NCBI GenBank assembly: GCA_022578605.1
Contig: MU394057.1
Coordinates: forward strand, 744,001 to 808,000
Length of the DNA stretch: 64,000 nt
Direction: 5' to 3'
Origin: Camillea tinctor
Lineage: Eukaryota > Ascomycota > Sordariomycetes > Xylariales > Xylariaceae
In this document: one piece after another, positions 27,841-38,327 of the stretch
Layout of the letters: each line of letters opens with the position of its first letter
How positions within the stretch are numbered: position 1 is the stretch's first letter
The notes under the pieces: model-generated
The model's input: only the letters and a program-made list of their open reading frames with translations
Database searches by the model: none
Told to the model about the DNA's origin: nothing
Made by a program: the position numbers and the translations under genes

Positions 27841-28848
27841 CACTTATTTTTGTAGTGTACCTACCTACGCTACCTACCTAATCCACCCCCAACTTAACCC
27901 CCTTCAATCAACCCACACTACTACACTACCTAGTACCCTACACAACATCGCACTACACCATATACAACTTCTCTAATCTTCGTAGTTAACCTTTTCTTTA
28001 CCTGGGTACCTACCTATTCTAATCCCGGCTTAGCATATTCTATGCTATTCTTGTGTAAGCGCATTTGTTTTAGTGTGTAAGGTGTAAGGTTAGAGTCACA
28101 CAAGAAAGAGGGAGAGAGAAGGAGGGAGGAGCGAGAAGTCAGAAAGAGAGAAAGACCATCTGAGTGTGCTATGTACATATATACGTACTACTTATATTGT
28201 AGAGTATGGTCAGTTTCAATATTTACTGTGTACAATATACACCATAGTAACTTTTCGTACCTTGTTTGACCTGAACTTCTTTTTTTTCCCTCTTCGGTGC
28301 GATTCAATCGGTCTTTGTTCTTTTTTCTTTTCTTTTTTTTCTCTTTTCTTTTTTTTTCTTTTTTCAATTCCATGAGGGAAAGAATAAAAAAAAATTATTT
28401 TTTTGGTCCCCTTCTTCCCATTGAAAGATTCCTTTTCCCTCCACACACACTTACATACACACCACACAAATAGTTCTTATCCATTCATTCATTTCATTCA
28501 TTTATCCTTTTCCTCCTCCACCTCCTCTAAACTAACCATTACTACCACTACTACTCCTACTCCTACTCTTACTACCACTACCACTACCCACCAACTTCTC
28601 TCTCTCTCTTTCTCTCTCTCTTACCCTCTTCCGTCTTACAACTCACTCCTCACTCTTCTCAACTTTGCTTTTTTGCTATTACTACCCATTTTATTCCTCT
28701 ACTTGCTTCTCGCTGTATATTTTCCTTCTCTTCTGTTGTTTCTTTTCTTTTCTTTCCTCGGCGAAGCTGAGTGAGACAACAAAAGTGGTACGGTACGGAC
28801 TTGTTCCCTAGTGTAGGTTTTGTCGGCTCTGCATCTACGTGTTCGGCA

Positions 28849-36898: not shown

Positions 36899-38327
36899 TT
36901 AATCGACTTCCATACCCCCCTCTTCGCCCTCGACATCCACGCCGCCATCGTGGCGGAGGCGCATCTTCTCGCGGCCGAAGACCTTGCCCTTCTCGGCGGG
37001 GAGGGCATCCTCAAGGCGCTGGATCTCGTCCTCGGCGAGCCCCTGCTGGGCGAGGCGGCGCTTCTCGCTGCCGCGCATGCGGGGCAGCAGGTGGGAGTGG
37101 GAGGCGACGAGCTTGCGGTCGAGGGCGAGCTCGCGCGCGCGCTTGCCTGCGAGGCGGCGCTTGTAGAAGACGCGCTCGCGGCGCGCGCGGATCTCCGAGA
37201 TGCGCTCCATCGCCTTGAGCGTTTTCTGCACGAGCTCGCGGTTGTACCGCACGGGCACGTTGCGCCGCGCGGCGAATTGGAGGGTCGAGTCGACAACCAT
37301 TTCCTCTATGGGGCGTGGGGATTTGGGTTAGTATATTTGTATATATATATTGAGGGGTTGGTGCTGGCAGATCTAGTAGGTTGCTCTGGCTGTGGTCCTT
37401 GAATAGAGTATCCATATTTTAAAGCCAATGCTAGACTGAAGGTAAAGTGAGTTAACGGGAGAATAGAGTACGTACTTCCAGCAGCCTTTCTGAAAGCCTT
37501 AGTCCACTTCAGCTTGCGAGGGTTCCTCTTCATCTTGAAGTTTTTCTGGAGTATATTAGTAAATAGTTTGATCAAAGTTGAATATTCTTCCGGTGTAGAG
37601 GCAGCAAAGCCACTAGACGTGTCCATCCTGAGATAGGAGAGAGAAAGGGGGACTGGTTTATCGCAAAAGCGAAGAGGTTTCACATACTGTGAACTAGTTA
37701 GCATTGGGTTCTCATAGGTCCATTGAGGATGGCGAAAGGGAAAACCCCTCTAGAATGTGACTTACCATGACATTTTGACCGACTGTAGCAAAGGAAGAAA
37801 AAGAAGTATGTTAGCCATCACACACTCTGCACTGCCAAAAAACCACTTTTCCAAGTCCAAGTTTTTTCTTCTCTCCCCTTTCTCCCCACGGTGGTAGACG
37901 TACCAAAAGCGAAATTGTTTCCCATCGTTCCGGCAAAAGGTCTGTTCCACAGAAGAGTCAGCCATTGTATTACTTCTTTCCTCCCCCCCTATCTTTCCCT
38001 CCATGTTCTCTCTTGGTAGTTAAGGTAGGTTGGACGGAGTGGATGGTTCTCGAGCGCATAGGGTGTTGATACCGTGCGGATCGCAAAGAACAGTGAATGA
38101 TAACATCGAATGGGTTTCACGGTAAATGGGATCTATGAAGACATACCATGCCCTTTCCCGGGTATGCAGGTCGGCTACAGAAGTAGCACGTCTCGATTCT
38201 GTGAAGTGGGAAGAATAAATGTTAGTCAATCACCAGTACGAAGTATGCAAGCCATAATACAAGAATTGTATTTTCTTAAGATCATATAGCGGTGATCTTG
38301 GGTTCAATATTCACAAACATACCTCAT
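36899..38327 (-). CDS. RLP24: 60S ribosome-biogenesis factor RLP24 (L24e-like), contains a stwintron
   Basis: Placeholder r-protein on pre-60S particles: Rlp24 recruits and activates the AAA-ATPase Drg1/Afg2 and is later exchanged for eL24. Six exons: 38327-38323 (5 nt), 38198-38147, 37941-37904, 37782-37767 (16 nt), 37545-37476, 37305-36899; 195 aa (yeast 199). L24e zinc finger ligands C6, C9, C32 and C36 (ETCYFC ... FCRSKC), then [40 protein letters not shown], and an acidic C-terminus. Exons 4 and 5 join in frame only if 37766-37546 is removed in two steps. First the 79-nt internal intron 37765-37687 (GTAAGT, GCTAAC, CACAG) is excised; this assembles a GTATGT donor from G37766 and the following TATGT for the 142-nt external intron. 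Divergent from PAM18. Confidence 0.93.

Follow-up and report, generated by a model that had tools for sequence, protein, structure and literature searches.

Spliceosomal twin introns (stwintrons), those of the [D1,2] type especially, are well described, and PMC9024468 claims more than 1500 of them for Hypoxylaceae. The uniquely occurring Hypoxylaceae [D1,2] stwintrons (Fekete et al. 2022, PMC9024468) are presented there with the same donor split between bases 1 and 2, and the same two complete U2 introns, as are found here in Camillea tinctor RLP24. Those stwintrons are likewise described as occurring in single copy, with 7/6-nt spacings and with a frameshift from the distal sites; on the description given in that source, the RLP24 case differs from them in its host gene and genus, and in its external intron, which is of the longer kind (model C, not A). 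The sister stwintrons reported from Hypoxylaceae and Xylariaceae (PMC12403724, PMC8469720) have the same [D1,2] architecture, and their distal missplicing keeps one intronic G (PMC12403724), as is predicted for RLP24. Conserved genes are also the hosts of the lipS [D1,2] stwintron of Aspergillus and of the bioDA [D2,3] stwintron, both in genes and at positions different from the present one; the same source (PMC5639578) describes stwintron gain at a pre-existing intron, as well as loss that leaves a standard intron.

As judged from the genomic DNA, the RLP24 intron of C. tinctor is very probably a [D1,2] spliceosomal twin intron. The arrangement is already known from related fungi; what would be new here is the host gene, RLP24, and the genus, Camillea. 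The main texts of PMC9024468, PMC12403724 and PMC8469720 mention neither of the two, and a literature search found no paper that combines stwintrons with RLP24 or with Biscogniauxia; supplementary gene tables may already list RLP24. With this assignment, a gene of ribosome assembly would contain a two-step intron, and [D1,2] stwintrons would extend to Camillea.

The minus-strand gene at positions 38327-36899 of the window (the whole 64,000-nucleotide stretch of C. tinctor DNA that was analysed) is RLP24, with a product of 195 aa and six exons (Table 1). RLP24 is essential in yeast. The C. tinctor product contains an L24e domain (PF01246, E 1.5e-31 in Pfam), and its identity as RLP24 versus eL24 was assessed against solved structures: five of the six top matches carry the name RLP24 (the best, 8i9r, with E 3.2e-86), the remaining one, 8br8 (E 1.3e-35), that of Ribosomal protein L24, and structures named L24e or eL24 rank below these six, with E 7.8e-16 and weaker. 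Protein searching of the genome indicates a single RLP24 gene, the sole other match, on contig C30, being weak (E 0.0016, with 38% across 42 residues). A search of 5.8 billion proteins returned 5237 homologues, the best 120 of which were used; among the matches listed, the nearest proteins are those of Biscogniauxia sp. FL1348 (92%) and B. marginata (85%). Camillea and Biscogniauxia are both placed in Xylariaceae in NCBI taxonomy. For one of the listed RLP24 proteins, P0029 from Pestalotiopsis sp. IQ-011, the source record gives the name yku80 DNA helicase, which looks like a misnomer.

Table 1. Features of the RLP24 locus (positions in the window) and [D1,2] candidates elsewhere in the C. tinctor genome.
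Feature	Position or locus	Strand	Length	Description
RLP24 exon 1	38323..38327	-	5 nt	ATGAG
RLP24 exon 2	38147..38198	-	52 nt	
RLP24 exon 3	37904..37941	-	38 nt	
RLP24 exon 4	37767..37782	-	16 nt	Microexon, 3' end CAT (His), between an ordinary intron and the putative stwintron
Putative [D1,2] stwintron, whole	37546..37766	-	221 nt	
Lone G (G1)	37766..37766	-		First base of the proposed external donor, precedes GTAAGT at 37765
Proposed internal intron	37687..37765	-	79 nt	GTAAGT, GCTAAC, 7 nt, CAG
Remainder of the proposed external intron	37546..37686	-	141 nt (142 with G1)	TATGTG, ACTAAT, 6 nt, CAG
RLP24 exon 5	37476..37545	-	70 nt	Begins AAAAAC = K-N
RLP24 exon 6	36899..37305	-	407 nt	Including stop
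L025, [D1,2] candidate	G000:C2:531578-531642	-		Sodium/proton exchanger (Na_H_Exchanger) gene, phase 2
L018, [D1,2] candidate	G000:C18:128293-128362			tRNA synthetase gene, PF00579
Further [D1,2] candidates	L009, L010, L014, L044, L008, L022, L028, L035, L043			MFS transporters, multicopper oxidase, amidohydrolase, lipase-like, amino-acid transporter, no family

The elements named in the original prediction were all located on the minus strand: a CAT codon followed by G 37766; for the internal intron, GTAAGT from 37765, GCTAAC, and a CACAG that runs to 37687; for the rest of the external intron, TATGTG, ACTAAT, and a CCAG ending at 37546; and, after it, the five A at 37545-37541. The predicted lengths of 79 nt for the internal intron and 142 nt for the external one were exact, with 221 nt for the whole. 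The internal intron is complete, with donor, branch point and acceptor all present, and it splits the external donor between its bases 1 and 2 (G 37766 / TATGTG). The external intron is complete as well, its donor GTATGT arising only after excision of the internal one. The stwintron sequence has one match in the 44.7-Mb C. tinctor genome.

Excisions were then enumerated over the stretch from exon 4 through exon 5, considering one-step introns of at least 30 nt with any termini, and two-step GT-AG schemes with at least 40 nt per intron. The normal stop was kept by 68 one-step introns with GT-AG, GC-AG or AT-AC ends, and none of these restored CRSKCH-KNFKMK. Pairing of 37765 with 37546 in one step does bring the reading frame to a stop, as had been claimed; use of the distal sites retains one G, while two-step excision produces an exact exon fusion. 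Skipping of exon 4 leads to an immediate stop. When any termini are allowed, exactly one one-step segment, the GG-AG segment 37766-37546, restores the conserved protein. Removal of this segment as a non-canonical intron is therefore the sole one-step excision with the right product, but its donor termini are non-consensus and the consensus internal signals would be left unexplained, so that this explanation is considered very unlikely.

Two-step GT-AG excision restores the conserved protein in four schemes, all of them with the internal donor at 37765, their external donors being GTTCAC, GTATGT, GTCCCC and GTGGCT. Because the GTATGT scheme, which uses the internal acceptor 37687, is the only one with a consensus external donor, the [D1,2] stwintron is retained as the solution; the three schemes with poor external donors were dropped. 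An [A2,3] stwintron is excluded, as it needs a G as first exon base and here this base is A. The exhaustive enumeration thus upholds the proposed [D1,2] reading as the sole consensus-U2 solution, and the exon joins proposed for it (H-KNFK) yield the intact 195-aa RLP24 with no frame break. The sequence signals, the unique solution and the conserved product are demonstrated for this intron.

In the proposed path, the spliceosome would excise the 79-nt internal U2 intron (37765-37687) in a first step, which would join the lone G 37766 to TATGTG and thereby produce the external donor GTATGT. In a second step, the 142-nt external intron would be removed using the acceptor at 37546, with CAT being fused to AAAAAC (His-Lys) in phase 0. 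Should the distal sites be paired at once, one G would be left in the mRNA and translation would stop in exon 5. On translation, stops are predicted soon after the junction for the unspliced form, the form devoid of the internal intron and the one-step distal form. Since partly spliced forms all stop early, only the ordered two-step path would yield RLP24, and we infer that the RNA is actually processed in this two-step order.

The public RLP24 protein of C. tinctor (P0007, 218 aa) is identical, at 218 of 218 residues, to the translation of a model in which, of the two nested introns, exactly 37765-37687 and not the external one is cut. It spans 37925-36899 of the window, reads the whole remaining external intron as coding, and then joins KNFKMK. 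The public gene model thus shares the internal intron with the [D1,2] structure but omits the second step, an agreement at the level of gene models that is not counted as transcript evidence. Were it right, the internal intron alone would be removed, the external one would be coding and P0007 would be the product; it is, after all, the deposited protein, and its frame is open. Against this, the start codon of P0007 is an ATG within exon 3 (37925) that is out of frame, and the protein lacks the N-terminal Cys motifs kept in the other 119 listed homologues (best 120 of 5237); its first 66 residues, mostly translated external intron, matched in a protein search the P0007 record alone, out of the 3 candidates that the search was sensitive enough to return. 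The correctness of the public model is thus regarded as extremely improbable, and the deposited C. tinctor RLP24 model looks wrong. The case illustrates how stwintrons can lead public gene models astray, since the RLP24 deposited for this fungus has no N-terminal Cys motifs and apparently contains translated intron.

The chance occurrence of the internal signals was evaluated by keeping the distal ends fixed and shuffling the interior with its dinucleotides kept (n = 20,000). A loosely acceptable internal branch point and acceptor, together with a split donor, appeared in 124 of the 20,000 shuffles, and the strict version of these signals, whose pattern was set after seeing the sequence, in 3. 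Scanned with the published search models A-C, the 64-kb window gave 2 matches, and 10 shuffled versions of the whole window averaged 0.9; such a motif scan is, by itself, near chance and not significant, and the evidential weight comes instead from the fact that frame and ends are fixed. The RLP24 stwintron is matched by model C. The other model-C match (27978-28261, minus strand) is without long open frames on both sides and is probably due to chance.

The branch-to-acceptor spacings of the RLP24 stwintron are 7 nt for the internal intron and 6 nt for the external one. According to PMC9024468, these are the commonest values among uniquely occurring Hypoxylon stwintrons (internal 7 nt in 49/81, external 6 nt in 50/81). 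In the four ordinary RLP24 introns the nearest branch-like site lies 12-24 nt from the acceptor; thus, the 7 and 6 nt match the published stwintrons and not the gene's own habit.

Two one-base assembly errors could in principle simulate a twin intron, and the residues around the junction bear on them. The junction motif is present in 119 of the 120 listed homologues (best 120 of 5237), P0007 being the exception, and it reads HKNF in 113 of the 119, HRNF in three, and QKNF, HKAF and SKNF in one each. The residue directly after the junction is K in 116 and R in three of these 119 listed homologues, and E in none. The original prediction had itself pointed to an error in the A run, with four instead of five A at 37545-37541, as permitting ordinary splicing to H-E-N-F-K. 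One base suffices for it and the H-E-N-F-K product does follow as claimed, but its plausibility did not withstand comparison, given that this position is occupied by K or R, never E, among the 119 listed homologues, and that the coincidence found by shuffling (124 or 3 of 20,000) would have to be accepted here too; an A-run error is scarcely credible.

Of the two errors, a single G at 37766/37765 would weigh more heavily, because an ordinary intron would then give the exact H-K protein. CAT would in that case be followed by an ordinary 220-nt intron, with GTAAGT as donor and CCAG at 37546 as acceptor, spliced in one step, and here also an error of one base suffices. Nonetheless, it would turn the consensus internal signals into a coincidence of the kind that 20,000 shuffles produced 124 times (loose) or 3 times (strict), and the two spacings would equal the commonest published values by accident; this error is accordingly held to be highly unlikely, the [D1,2] stwintron remaining the preferred reading.

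Other properties were inspected with the sister stwintrons in mind. RNA folding revealed no special structure either for the whole stwintron (z -0.85, 42/200 shuffles folding as well) or for the internal intron (z -0.55, 52/200). The self-complementarity score of the stwintron was reached in 74 of 500 mononucleotide shuffles and, therefore, this measure, which differs from the authors' own, gives no sign here of the 'underlying symmetry' reported from Hypoxylon. Near-terminal complementary 10-nt elements (NTIRE-10) are reported for 37 of almost 300 sister stwintrons; no NTIRE-10 was found in the RLP24 stwintron, where complementary words linking the first 60 start positions with the last 70 bases reach a length of 6 at most. 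Unlike the sister stwintrons, to which it was compared by description and not by alignment, the RLP24 stwintron has no similar genomic copy, and its external branch-acceptor distance is 6 nt in contrast with the 19 nt given as typical for them. The RLP24 stwintron shows the tested sequence features of the [D1,2] class, and not those of the propagating sister stwintrons.

The B. marginata protein (P0002) has Gln in place of His at residue 37, just before the junction, and it is the sole Gln among the 119 listed homologues. Loss of T from CATGGTAAGT would yield CAG followed by GTAAGT, that is, an ordinary intron. The Gln, taken from one protein record, suggests that the junction has changed within the clade, and it may be the trace of a single-base change that made the intron ordinary. 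If the DNA of B. marginata shows CAG + GTAAGT, the clade would document a transition between the two kinds of intron by one base; more generally, if Biscogniauxia has a one-base variant of the site, stwintron gain or loss would be traceable at the single-base level in a conserved gene. A broader and rather doubtful proposal is that one base at the RLP24 junction decides between a twin and an ordinary intron, and that splicing here acts as a quality gate on ribosome assembly, where splicing order could set the RLP24 level and T loss from CAT in Biscogniauxia would give an ordinary intron and the change of His to Gln.

Further [D1,2] candidates were sought in the C. tinctor genome by three pattern searches. 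The first gave 5 matches versus 1 for the reversed pattern, the second 17 versus 8, with 9 when the second base of the outer donor was changed to C, and the third 36 (two overlapping) versus 8, with 23 when A was the second outer-donor base. The excess over the changed-base patterns is modest. An open-frame test, with an open frame of at least 40 to either side of the join as criterion, was applied to 39 candidate loci, comprising 30 of the 36 third-search rows and, for the rest, loci from the two earlier searches. Two-step splicing only was favoured at 9 loci, one-step only at 4, both at 6 and neither at 20, from which many of the motif matches are probably not stwintrons. RLP24 itself falls among the four one-step-only loci (18 vs 43), a score put down to its 16-nt flanking exon, which such a local test cannot follow.

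Eleven two-step products, chosen by the author, were checked for domains. A domain runs clearly through the two-step junction in 6 of the 11: two MFS transporters, a multicopper oxidase, a tRNA synthetase of the W/Y class, a sodium/proton exchanger and an amidohydrolase. The single family match of the lipase-like candidate crosses the junction by a few residues, that of the amino-acid transporter candidate begins after it, and no family match was obtained for 3 of the 11 products. The presence of the [D1,2] class in the C. tinctor genome is thereby supported. The synthetase candidate L018, which we take from a motif to be tryptophanyl, resides in a gene that is likely essential. Stwintron no-274, as described in PMC9024468, is located in a monovalent cation:proton antiporter gene and, per its authors, is also found in other Xylariales; the candidate L025 fits it by description (exchanger gene, phase 2, [D1,2]) and serves as a positive control.
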